Assembly (NCBI GenBank): GCA_030526325.1
Contig: JAUNCY010000001.1
Span: 1-58,162 of the forward strand
DNA: 58,162 nt
From: Bacillota bacterium
Lineage (GTDB): Bacteria > Bacillota > Clostridia > Peptostreptococcales > Anaerovoracaceae
Direction: 5' to 3'
The translations under genes were made by a program, and so were the position numbers. The notes beneath the pieces were generated by a model, which saw only the letters and a program-made list of their open reading frames with translations, made no database searches and was not told where the DNA came from. Shown here piece by piece: positions 355 to 56,051 of the stretch. Positions within the stretch are counted from its first letter, which is position 1. Each line of letters opens with the position of its first letter.

Positions 355-1389
355 TCATTCCTCCCCATCTGATACAATATCTGTATGATTTACTTTAATT
401 TCTACTTTTATCACCACAGTCCCGTCAGCCTGTCCTTCAACGGGCTTTCCAAGACTGTCCACGACCGCCGCGCCGGCAGGTATTTTTACCACCGCATTAA
501 CGTATGTGTCTTCTGTTATTCCGGAAACATCCACAGTTTCGGTTTCAATAGAATCTATACCGGTTATATCTTCGTATTTTCCCTTCAGGGATATTGGCGC
601 AGAATCCGGCATGACAAGGGAAATGCCTTCGGCCGGGGTTCCTGTATAATTCACTTTTACCTCAAAGGACTTAACAAGAGTCTTTACTGCCTGTATATTT
701 ACGGAAGGCTCCTCAATTTCAACGCCTTTGACCGCCTTGCCGTCCCTGTCAACGGCAATGAGGGATATTTCCTGAGAATAGTCCTGCTGACCTTCCTTTA
801 CCTTAAGAACTCCCACTACAGAATCCACCTTGTCTACGTATGTGCTCGGTCCCGACACTTCCACAGAAGATCTGCTCATCTCTGTGATATCCATTTCGCA
901 GCCGTCTCTTAATTCTCCGCTGACTACCACATCAACCGGTTTTTTCTCTGTAACCAGCCGGTCAACAACTACTACCATATCTCCGTCTACAGCAACGGCT
1001 TCCTCAATATTGCTTGGTGCCGTCACCTTTACGCTGACCTGATTTTCCCCTTCCGCGCAGTCTGAAACGTCTATCCTTGCCGAAAGACGATTTGCCGTCA
1101 TCCCGTAAATTTCACTGCGTCTTCCCTTAATAACCGCGCTGATTACATCTTCAAATTCGGTAATAACCACAAGGCCCTGAGACTCCAGAGTTTTTTCACC
1201 CACAATGTTGAGAGGCACTCCCTCAAGAGTCTTCTCAGTCTCGGGATTGACTTCTCCTATTACGTAAGCCCAGAGAATAACCGCAAGCACCACAGACAGA
1301 ATAATGTTAAGCGTTTTTACTCTTCTGCTGTTTTCCGGCTTGTTTTTTTCATTTCCTGCTGACAGCTTTCTAAACAACCTGTTATCCAT
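355..1389 (-). CDS. cdaR: CdaR, YbbR-domain regulator of the diadenylate cyclase
   Basis: 344 residues: a short basic cytoplasmic start, one membrane segment at about residues 27-44 (rich in L, V and I, ending AYVIGEV), then an extracellular region built of successive YbbR-type beta repeats. In other Firmicutes CdaR binds CdaA at the membrane and modulates its c-di-AMP production. The start overlaps the end of cdaA by 8 bases and the stop is one base from the glmM start, so the three genes form one translationally coupled unit. The length and one-TM-plus-repeats layout are normal for the family. Confidence 0.92.
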
Positions 1390-2967: not shown

Positions 2968-3197
2968 AAGAGAGTCCGGACCGCACGCCTGACCTGGTCT
3001 TTGACCCCACACCCGCCTGCTGGAGGGTTCGCAAAAGGGTCGCTTTTACTACTGCCCCTCTCGGTATATCCGGCAGGACTTACTTCTAAACCGCGCCATG
3101 CTCACCGTCCGCCCTTTTGCGGCCGGCTTACGTGGATCCCTTCGCCCGCGACTGGCCTGGACTTTCAACCACAGACACGTGCGGTCCGGGCTCTCTT
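2968..3197 (-). ncRNA. raiA-type structured noncoding RNA upstream of hpf
   Basis: About 225 G+C-rich bases between comFC and hpf. The ends pair over 17 bases (2971-2987 with 3178-3194, one G-U) and the interior is full of short complementary G/C arms, while no reading frame fits. The raiA RNA motif is known from Firmicutes and Actinobacteria as a conserved, complex RNA directly upstream of hpf/raiA on the same strand, which is exactly this position and size. The assignment rests on location, size and closing stem rather than on a covariance-model score. SRP RNA and RNase P RNA were considered, but their signature sequences are absent. The 5' end lies next to the comFC stop, so it may be co-transcribed or use a promoter inside comFC. 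Confidence 0.72.
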
Positions 3198-26108: not shown

Positions 26109-26377
26109 AAAAAGACTTCGTCCCGTAAAGAGACGAAGCCGTAAATCTTCGCTGTACCACTCTATACTATATACGGACATACCATCATATGTCTTCTCTG
26201 TCACGGGAGAACCCGTCAAAGCCTACTTTCATGAACTGACGATTTCGGTTTGCAACTCAGGAGTGATTTTCGGTTAAATACTACTTGTATCAGGCTTCCA
26301 GCATCCCCGACTCTCTATAACTTTCATAGATAACTTACTCTCTCCGTCAAAGTCTTTATAGTCTGTATTTACTTTTC
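26109..26377 (-). promoter_or_regulatory. T-box riboswitch upstream of porGDAB, probably isoleucine-specific
   Basis: The T-box sequence AGAGTGGTACAGCG lies at 26163-26150 and a terminator hairpin with T run at 26140-26109. Stem I is recognisable: GGAGAGAGTAA on the 5' side, GGGGATGCTGGAAGCC in the distal part, and GAAAATCACTCC on the specifier side. Aligned to known T-boxes, the triplet before the conserved A-CTCC is ATC (isoleucine, 26267-26265); the alternative AAT (asparagine) has an atypical following base. The UGGU bulge pairs with discriminator A, which fits tRNA-Ile and not tRNA-Asn (G in bacteria). Uncharged tRNA-Ile would prevent termination and raise por expression. Confidence 0.88.
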
Positions 26378-53029: not shown

Positions 53030-53737
53030 TTATGTTACCGAAAGCATGTTGTACATTTTCATAAGCCTGATGTCGTTTTTTGAAATCTTCAGCTGGCTTA
53101 TCAGGGCGGCGTCCTCTTTCAAAGGGACTTTGGAAAAAAGCATTTTTGTCGCTATAGGCATTATAGGTCTGGATGAGAATCCGTTGAAAAGCCCCCACTT
53201 AGTATCCGAATCCAGATACGATGCCAGAATCTGAACGCTGGCCTGCTCCATAGGAGTATCCCTGTTGAACAGCGAAATATATGTCAAAGCGTCATAGTGC
53301 TCTATGTATCCCCAGTAGGTAGTCTCGCAGTTCTGATAATTTACCGGATCGTCATAATTCATATACATCATTATTTTATACTTGTTTTCTTCCGTCACGG
53401 AAAGCACGTCAAAAATGCATCTGATAAGTCTGTTTATCCTTCCGTCATATAAATAGGAATGAAACTGGGACAATCCGTTAAAAAAGGCAGGATTATTTCC
53501 CCTGCTCACTATCTCGGCCCGGTCCGGGCGGCAGTACAGAAACTGTTCCACATGAACGTGGAGAGCATCCGCAATATCATACAAAGTCTCCACATCCACC
53601 GTTATTTCTCCCTTTTCATACTTCGAAACCGTGGATTTGCTTTTGCATATGTCTGCAGCAAGATCTTCTATTGTCTTTTTTCTCAGTTTTCGATAATTTC
53701 TTATCTGCTGCCCTACGTATTTGTTTATCTCCGACAT
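53030..53737 (-). CDS. XRE-family regulator with a C-terminal sensor-like domain
   Basis: 235 residues. N-terminal Cro/CI helix-turn-helix (about 6-62): QQIRNYRKLRKKTIEDLAADICKSKSTVSKYEKGEITVDVETLYDIADAL. The remaining 165 residues are a mixed domain seen in Clostridia XRE proteins without known ligand. ATG 53737 follows GGAGGTG. A TATAAT lies about 60 bases upstream at 53799-53804 and a palindrome GTAAATTTAC between it and the gene may be its own operator. Confidence 0.88.
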   Translation of the reverse strand: MSEINKYVGQQIRNYRKLRKKTIEDLAADICKSKSTVSKYEKGEITVDVETLYDIADALHVHVEQFLYCRPDRAEIVSRGNNPAFFNGLSQFHSYLYDGRINRLIRCIFDVLSVTEENKYKIMMYMNYDDPVNYQNCETTYWGYIEHYDALTYISLFNRDTPMEQASVQILASYLDSDTKWGLFNGFSSRPIMPIATKMLFSKVPLKEDAALISQLKISKNDIRLMKMYNMLSVT

Positions 53738-53894: not shown

Positions 53895-53923
53895 TTGACG
53901 GAAAAATACCCTCCTGCTAAAAT
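53895..53923 (+). promoter_or_regulatory. Sigma-A promoter of an orphan structured RNA
   Basis: TTGACG (53895-53900), 17 bases, TAAAAT (53918-53923) on the plus strand, with no protein gene following in that direction. Confidence 0.75.
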
Positions 53924-53925
53924 AC

Positions 53926-54109
53926 TTTCAACATACAGCTTGCCGGTCAGGAATAAGAGAGTGTATATAAAATATCCGCCGGCAGGCAGTGCTCCCTGTA
54001 ATGCCGTGAATACGGTCAGGGAAACCTGTCATGCGGACAAGAAAGTTGAAATAACCAATTACCACAGAACAAAAAACCAAACCTGCCGAAGGTCTGGTTT
54101 TTTGTTTAA
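53926..54109 (+). ncRNA. Orphan riboswitch-like RNA ending in a terminator
   Basis: About 180 bases from a good promoter to a terminator (54070-54109: AACCA-ACCT and AGGT-TGGTT arms, T run). The ends pair (53926-53932 with 54045-54051). Inside, TCCGC/GCGGA (53975/54033), GGCAGG/CCTGTC (53981/54025) and CCCTG/CAGGG (53994/54017) stack into a rod. CCGGCAGG (53979-53986) can instead pair with CTTGCCGG (53939-53946), or with CCTGCCG of the terminator arm (54082-54088). Such competing pairings are typical of terminator-type riboswitches, yet the next gene downstream is on the opposite strand. GTCAGGGAAACCTG weakly recalls cobalamin riboswitches, but the B12 box is not convincing. 6S RNA is another possibility. 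Confidence 0.6.
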
Positions 54110-54183: not shown

Positions 54184-55899
54184 CTATTTTGTTATTATAA
54201 CTCTGCGGGTTTCGGCATCCCATTCAACCTTCGCTCCGAGAGTTTCTCCTATAAATCTGGCAGGAGTATAAGTCCTGTTATTTTCAATAACCGCAGGACT
54301 GTCCAGTCTGACATTATTGCCGTTTACAACCGCAGTGTCTGAGTTTATCGTCAGAACTATTTCGATTCCATCCTTTGCAACGGTTACCGTCCTCTCTGCT
54401 TCGTTCCACAGAACCTGAGCGCCGAGAGCTTCTGCCACAAATCTTGCGGGAGTCATTGTCCTGTCATTTCTTATGAAAGGAGCTGCGTCGCTGTATTCTG
54501 TCTTTCCGTTCTTTCTTACAGTCTGACTCGGAATACTTCCGGCTCCGTCAGGATCAAATCTGACAGTATAACGTGATACGGAGCTGCTTCCTGTTGACGT
54601 GACTTTTTCAGGCACTTTTCCCAGTGCGTATACCGCAGCGGTTCCGGATACTTCGCAGGCTGCCAGCAGGAGATTCCTGCCGTAAGGATTTTTGGATGCG
54701 GGGACAAATTCAAGACCTTCCGGCGCCACATCTCCTGCCATATCGTCCGTAAACTCACGGCTGTTGATATATCCTGCATAAGAAATCTTCTCCGGATCTG
54801 TAATATCATATGCCATTATACCTCCGATTCTTTCCAGAGCTATGAAGGCATATGTTCTGCCGTCAACTGTTCTGGTTATTACCGATTCAGGTTCCGGGCC
54901 CTTTTTTCCGGAACGGTCATCTATAGTTATATCATCATTTGAGCAGTTGAAATATTCCGGCAGCATCTCCGATGTAATTCTTTCAAAATCGTCGGCGCTG
55001 TCATACACCTCTTCAATTCCGTCTTCACCCGTTTCAAAAACGGTAAAACTTCTGCCGCCGAACAGGTAATCCTTTTCGGCATCAAGTCCGTCATAATCAC
55101 CCGTATCAAAGAAAACGACTTTCCCCGTAAGTCCGCTGTTTTCCGGTGTAATATTTCCTGTAGGCGAAGCTTTTCCCTTCCCGAAATTTATTTCAGCTTC
55201 ATTCAGATAGTCTCCCCACTCGCGGGAATCCCCTTCGTTTGCCGTAACAATATAAGTCCTCCCTCTACAGCTGAAAGCGGCTATTCCGTCCGGCATACGT
55301 ATCCCCATAAGAGATTCGTAATTCTTTGGATCATATTTCTCATCTTTTTTATCAATGTCTACCTTAATTCTGGAGTAATCCTCAAATCAGACACTGTAAA
55401 TTCCGGTAAAGGACTTTGACTCTATGTCCAATATAGCAACAGAGTTGGCTTCCTGAAGTGTAACATATGCCGTTCCTCCGGATACAGCTATGTACTCAGG
55501 CTCCAGGTCAGCGGAAGGAAGCTTATTCTTTTTCAATACCACGTTTTTATCGGTCAATTCATCTCGTTTTTCATCAAAAGAGGTAAAATCCACAACAGCA
55601 GAGGTATCCTTGTCTAAATTTATTACCGCAACGCTGCCCTTTGGGTCAGTTGTACCTTCTCCGTATCCTTCTCTGGGTTCGCCCTCATCCGCCGTGAGTA
55701 TTGTGCTGTTGTCCGCAAATAAGATCATATCAGGCTGCACTCCGGTGTCTACAGCTTTCAGGAATTCAAGGCTGCCGTCTGCATTGCATTTAAAAATGAC
55801 TGCTTTTCCGTTGTCGGTATAATCCTCCGCCTGTACTGCCGCCAGTGAAATAACAGCCGCCAGACCAACAGTTAATATCCTGCTTAATTTTCTTTTCAT
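54184..55899 (-). pseudogene. Choice-of-anchor I-like protein with copper-amine-oxidase-type stalk domains, interrupted
   Basis: Three signs of decay in one frame. The signal peptide (MKRKLSRILTVGLAAVISL) runs straight into the middle of a choice-of-anchor I beta-propeller (GVQPDMILFADN, ADEGEPREGYGEGTTDPKGSVAVINL), so roughly 100 residues seem deleted. An in-frame TGA at 55389-55387 follows FTGIYSV, where relatives usually have Gly. The frame then continues through EDYSRIKVDIDKKDEK, MGIRMPDGIAAF, ANEGDSREWGDYLNEAE, and ends with two copper amine oxidase N-terminal-like repeats (TPARFVAEALGAQVLWNE; TPARFIGETLGAKVEWDA). Proteins of this kind are secreted, possibly calcium-binding or phosphatase-like; the second part alone would lack a signal. 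Confidence 0.75.
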
Positions 55900-56051
55900 C
55901 ACGCCACTCTTCTTTCCTATAAAATTTATCATCTTTTCGATGCAGTTAAATTTTAAACCCTGCTCTGTAAAATCTTCTACCGCTTGCCGGTTAACTTGAG
56001 GTTAAATTTCTGAGGGGTTTCAGTCGTATACCGTGCTGTGTCTTTTATCCC

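Follow-up and report, generated by a model that had tools for sequence, protein, structure and literature searches.

The results of our sequence analysis suggested that a stand-alone small RNA, which we call RNA-A, acts as a sponge (an anti-sRNA) for a member of a new sRNA family, RNA-B, and we give this reading a probability of roughly 0.6. RNA-A is encoded in the 58,162-nt stretch of DNA that was analyzed (the window), and from 53947 to 53966 it is complementary, at all 20 positions, to the segment that is conserved in RNA-B. If this reading is correct, two sRNA genes are new, both without a match in Rfam 15, and they are predicted to take part in an sRNA-sRNA interaction in uncultured gut Clostridia. 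What looked like an orphan switch would then be explained by searching the rest of the genome for its complement, and the predicted pairing is exact enough for direct testing. No paper on RNA-A or RNA-B was found in our literature search.

The RNA-A gene and its relatives

The features of the RNA-A region are listed below. G001 and G002 are the other two genomes of the genus (g1), and G000 is the genome of the window.

53030 to 53737, minus strand: gene for an XRE/Cro-type regulator (Pfam HTH_3), divergent from RNA-A; ortholog in the same arrangement in G001 and G002
53895 to 53923, plus strand: promoter of RNA-A, found by scan and kept in G001 and G002
53929 to 54107, plus strand: RNA-A, very probably a stand-alone sRNA of about 178 nt, bounded by promoter and terminator, with an inferred start site; shorter syntenic form in G001 and G002
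53938 to 53989, plus strand: GC-rich hairpin (arms about 53938 to 53952 and 53975 to 53988) with most of the RNA-B-complementary segment in its loop
53947 to 53966, plus strand: perfect complement of the RNA-B conserved segment (conserved core 53948 to 53964), reading as Shine-Dalgarno (SD) sequence, spacer, and GUG
53967 to 54050, plus strand: middle region of RNA-A, missing in G001 and G002; contains the proposed switch segment (53979 to 53986)
54040 to 54049, plus strand: predicted second contact with RNA-B, nine pairs to its CAACUUCU block; missing in G001 and G002
54054 to 54075, plus strand: second conserved segment, (A)CCAAT(T)ACCACARAACAA, running into the terminator, from comparison with G001 and G002
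about 54068 to 54107, plus strand: intrinsic terminator of RNA-A, hairpin AAAAAACC..GGTTTTTT, from the fold and from two double-change pairs relative to G001 and G002

The original prediction, which was made from this DNA alone, placed a consensus-like promoter, a folded transcript some 180 bases long, and a terminator between two minus-strand genes, with no gene downstream, and this description held up. The promoter reads TTGACG-17-TAAAAT, with a TGC before the -10 element (extended -10). The promoter scan returned 5 promoter-like sites versus 4.1 ± 2.4 expected, so the promoter by itself counts for little; G001 and G002, however, have the identical hexamers at the identical spacing, again with a TGn. 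The sequence from 53929 to 54109 folds into a multi-hairpin structure at -61.2 kcal/mol, compared to -39.3 ± 4.0 for shuffled sequences (z = -5.4; 0 of 200 as good), and the terminator supplies much of this stability. The terminator was missing from the pattern-scan list because its tail lies mostly within the stem. The next gene 3' of RNA-A in the window is convergent, and none is codirectional. On the minus strand of the window, a lone in-frame TGA (55387 to 55389) splits an open frame (54184 to 55932) in two, which may reflect a nonsense mutation, an assembly error, or recoding.

The XRE regulator has an ortholog with 80% identity in each of the two genus mates, and a shorter unit lies upstream of that ortholog in the same orientation. 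The order of elements in this unit is TTGACG-17-TAAAAT, the motif CAGGAATAAGAAAGTGT, a ACCAATTACCACAGAACAA-like segment, and a terminator. The 17-nt motif (53948 to 53964 in the window) is identical at 16 of 17 positions between G000 and G002 and begins 24 nt after the -10 element in both, and the stretch between the -10 element and the motif is identical at 10 of 24 positions. In the terminator, two G-C/A-U double changes preserve pairing, and the middle of the window RNA (about 53967 to 54050) is missing from both relatives. The gene 3' of RNA-A in G002 differs from the one in the window and is also convergent. Taken together, the syntenic unit, the spaced motif, the paired terminator changes, and the differing convergent genes point to a conserved stand-alone RNA gene rather than a leader, and we hold with high confidence that RNA-A is such a gene. 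It had been suggested that the RNA be checked for a position before a gene; there was no codirectional gene 3' of RNA-A in the window, in G002, or in G001, where the contig ends soon after. The divergent XRE regulator is a candidate controller of RNA-A, which would be transcribed from the promoter described above.

RNA-A was found only in genus g1, as two independent sequences; the G001 and G002 RNA-A regions are 99% identical to each other. When the G002 copy was used in a BLAST search of 345 genomes, the scored hits (at most two candidates per genome) did not include the window RNA-A and, besides G001 and G002, consisted of short matches only. The case for homology between the window RNA-A and the G002 copy is therefore made by synteny, the promoter, the spacing of the motif, and the terminator, and the search says little about RNA-A homologues outside the genus because the window's own RNA-A was missed. 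We also considered an RNA-A-like RNA beside an XRE paralogue and rejected it, as the loci in question (L020 to L022) have no motif within 3 mismatches. At two of these loci (L020 and L021; G000:C44 and G001:C85), the XRE paralogue is divergent from a leader that precedes a membrane protein gene; by eye, this leader looks FMN-riboswitch-like.

RNA-B and its complementarity to RNA-A

When 349 genomes of the family were searched for the motif AGGAATAAGARAGTGT, 9 of them had exact matches, at 10 sites in total, versus 2 sites for the reversed control. Three of the sites are RNA-A itself (G000, G001, and G002), and six lie at one locus 3' of an isocitrate-dehydrogenase-family gene (Pfam Iso_dh) in G000, G017, G307, G308, G030, and G354. 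The tenth, in G067, forms the SD sequence and GTG start of an open frame that runs for 152 codons or more. Within the 1.82-Mb genome G000, the exact motif occurs twice, in RNA-A and on the reverse strand of RNA-B, and no further site lies within 1 mismatch of the 16-mer.

RNA-B, an sRNA that had not been annotated, is located at G000:C30:8514-8625 on the plus strand (locus L036), with copies in L028, L032 to L035, and L124, so that it is present in 7 genomes of 5 genera. A promoter (TTGnTT-17-TATAAT) precedes all seven copies on the strand that carries the motif complement, and a terminator is present in all six complete copies. The seventh copy (G357) is cut by a contig end; of its conserved segment, the 3' part, CAACUUCUAAUACACUCUCUUAUUC, is retained and the 5' part is not. 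RNA-B has a variable 5' part, then an almost invariant unpaired segment of 26 to 36 nt, and then the terminator. The conserved segment directly adjoins the hairpin of the terminator, the position that sRNA seeds take. Two proteins encoded next to RNA-B (L036:59-670 and 667-1314, minus strand) have no convincing Pfam or NCBIfam match, and similar neighbors adjoin RNA-B in other RNA-B loci.

A covariance model was built from the six complete copies; among 345 genomes it found all six again, together with the copy in G357. A second run, against 393 genomes of the order, yielded no further copy that has the conserved segment; the order-level match in G047 lacked it, and so did all six loci that were inspected (L101 to L106) among weak matches in 27 other genomes of the first run. 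RNA-B had no Rfam match at five loci searched up to an E value of 1, where the two hits, both far below threshold, fell elsewhere in L036 and in the RNA-A terminator in L025.

The complementary stretch of RNA-A falls on the RNA-B segment that is nearly invariant in the six complete copies. The expected chance recurrence of any RNA-A 20-mer in the genome is 6e-4. The longest complementary run between the two RNAs is 20 nt, compared to at most 13 nt in 2000 shuffles of RNA-A, with the caveat that the complementarity was noticed post hoc. The interaction energy is -22.3 kcal/mol, compared to -5.8 ± 2.5 for 200 shuffles of RNA-A, none of which was as good. With the G002 RNA-A and the RNA-B of G000, the value is -17.3, and again 0 of 200 shuffles were as good. 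In RNA-A, the 20-nt segment is unpaired with a mean probability of 0.73 (its GGA is paired) versus 0.42 across the whole RNA; the matching RNA-B segment is almost wholly open, with a mean of 0.88. RNA-A and the seed-like segment of another sRNA in the same genome thus share 20 bp of complementarity that is mostly unpaired on both sides. The co-fold adds the nine pairs of the second contact listed above, which is possibly a chance match.

The sponge model and its alternatives

How the gene is built, that its motif is conserved, and that the two RNAs are complementary can be read directly from the DNA; the steps that follow are those of a proposed mechanism. The complementary segment of RNA-A reads like a ribosome-binding site, a spacer, and GUG, and the RNA-B segment has the sequence complementary to such a site with spacer and start codon. 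RNA-B would block the translation of some mRNAs by pairing with their ribosome-binding sites. RNA-A, expressed divergently from the XRE gene, would offer its 20-nt segment, mostly in a hairpin loop, to RNA-B; as a mimic of a ribosome-binding site plus GUG, it would titrate RNA-B or trigger its decay, and the repression of the mRNAs would be relieved. Titration of RNA-B, or pairing that promotes its decay, is the most likely effect because the RNA-A segment resembles the ribosome-binding site and GUG expected of an RNA-B target.

Candidate targets were sought as sites with 2 mismatches and with the pattern GGAATAAGA-N0-8-ATG. The sequence AGGAATAAGA serves ilvC as its ribosome-binding site in six genomes (G000, G001, G002, G017, G307, and G308), and lysA-like genes have such sites in G017, G307, and G001; both gene names are presumptive, as we recognized them from the protein sequences. 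The use of this sequence at ilvC, like the SD and GTG of the G067 frame, counts in favor of the sponge reading. The ilvC ribosome-binding site and spacer, GGAGGAATAAGAAA(A)TG, are identical or nearly so across the two genera represented by these six genomes. Three genomes (G030, G354, and G357) carry RNA-B without such an ilvC site, and G001 and G002 show the reverse. We claim no RNA-B target because the ilvC and lysA similarity does not track the presence of RNA-B; the likeness at the ilvC start could reflect a shared regulatory target or simple conservation. A full two-RNA circuit, in which RNA-B covers the ribosome-binding sites of mRNAs for biosynthesis, ilvC among them, and an XRE-controlled decoy, RNA-A, releases the block, is a tentative proposal that we regard as rather doubtful.

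The main evidence against the sponge reading comes from G001 and G002: the motif persists there, at 16 of 17 positions, and neither RNA-B nor its two flanking genes were recovered. RNA-A could be a stand-alone regulatory sRNA whose motif, like a ribosome-binding site, acts on another RNA, a protein, or the ribosome, with the RNA-B match being incidental or a relic. The motif is kept throughout the genus, that is, in two independent RNA-A sequences, and RNA-B was absent from the G001 and G002 results of both the model and permissive searches; the permissive-search candidates there were terminators without the conserved segment (9 of 18 listed places scanned). Purine-rich, SD-like sequence is also common (49 sites in 8 genomes versus 23 for the reversed control). 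Yet chance is very unlikely to place a perfect match of 20 nt precisely over the part of another sRNA that is conserved, and there is no near-match elsewhere in G000, so we consider this reading unlikely, although it deserves to be kept in mind. The two genes that flank RNA-B elsewhere (the dehydrogenase gene and the gene on the other side) were likewise not found in G001 and G002. These are draft genomes, 82% and 90% complete, so RNA-B and its flanking genes could be missing by accident; true loss is the likelier explanation. The retention of the motif could reflect a recent loss of RNA-B, a draft gap, or another partner for the motif. It is quite improbable that the shared 17 to 20 bp are instead a protein-binding DNA site (an operator) at both loci. 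The motif does lie just downstream of the RNA-A start site, next to a gene for a DNA-binding regulator, but it has no dyad symmetry, the RNA-B block is 26 to 36 nt long, unpaired, and placed against a terminator hairpin in the manner of sRNA seeds, and G017, an RNA-B carrier, yielded no copy of the XRE regulator. We see only a slim chance that RNA-A is an mRNA leader or a small-peptide gene (SD AGGA, 8 nt, GUG) repressed by RNA-B in the style of a type I toxin-antitoxin system. The spacing from SD to GUG is right, and a nearly identical sequence starts the long open frame in G067. In the window, however, the frame (68 codons) passes through the terminator to 54167, and we rejected a coding reading of the motif on that ground; in G002, the frame has 18 codons and ends inside the terminator, and by eye its peptide is neither similar to that of the window nor strongly hydrophobic. 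Neither frame thus fits a short, hydrophobic toxin encoded behind the SD-like motif.

The remaining alternative is that RNA-A is an orphan riboswitch, a relict leader, or a 6S-like RNA, and it can be given very little credence. The original prediction proposed a switch because one 8-base segment (53979 to 53986, CCGGCAGG) could pair with three partners. All three complementarities exist: 53939 to 53946 pairs at 8 of 8 positions, 54082 to 54089, in the terminator, at 7 of 8, and 53975 to 53982 at 7 of 8. The last of these overlaps the segment itself, which makes it impossible as a helix. The RNA is stably folded and alternative pairings with the terminator do exist, but neither genus mate has the segment, and their syntenic RNAs lack the whole region of alternative pairing, so the proposed switch is not supported by the comparison. 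Searches of Rfam with RNA-A gave no riboswitch or 6S match at the gathering threshold or at E values up to 10. A conserved aptamer core was rejected on the lack of an Rfam riboswitch match and the loss of the middle region in G001 and G002, and with no codirectional gene 3', neither a riboswitch nor a relict leader is supported. The 6S-like reading fared no better, with no match to RF00013 up to an E value of 10 and a multi-hairpin fold. Among the roles first proposed, a trans-acting RNA is the one that fits, as the conserved 17-nt segment is complementary to another sRNA; a sponge for RNA-B is the form of it that we prefer. Two other structured RNAs were seen in the window, a strong raiA-motif RNA (2980 to 3185, minus strand; 181 bits) and a T-box leader (26126 to 26359, minus strand). 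In Clostridioides difficile, the raiA-motif family is described under the name ModT (PMC11706538).

Comparison with known sRNA sponges

Although the RNAs described here are new, the kind of regulation that we propose for them is already known. In Staphylococcus aureus, RsaI (RsaOG) is described as having G-rich regions and binding C-rich sRNAs (cited in PMC8216469). It resembles RNA-A in being a stand-alone sRNA with G-rich regions, and its partners differ. Pairs of sRNAs, including SpoX chimeras, have been reported in C. difficile (PMC10267692); SpoX is like RNA-A in being a case of possible sRNA-sRNA titration in a clostridial bacterium, but in that account it is captured with Hfq and also activates spo0A.

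The closest working model for RNA-A is RosA of Bacillus subtilis, a stand-alone RNA that acts as a sponge for RoxS and FsrA and is repressed by CcpA (PMC8216469). As described in that report, RosA is a Gram-positive sRNA with its own promoter, and it has unpaired purine- or G-rich segments complementary to the seed of an SD-targeting sRNA, features that RNA-A would share. RosA has at least two sRNA partners and two G-rich regions, both short, whereas RNA-A has one 20-nt complement and one candidate partner; RosA is under CcpA, whereas RNA-A is divergent from an XRE regulator. The likeness between RosA and RNA-A is one of predicted mode of action and not of descent.
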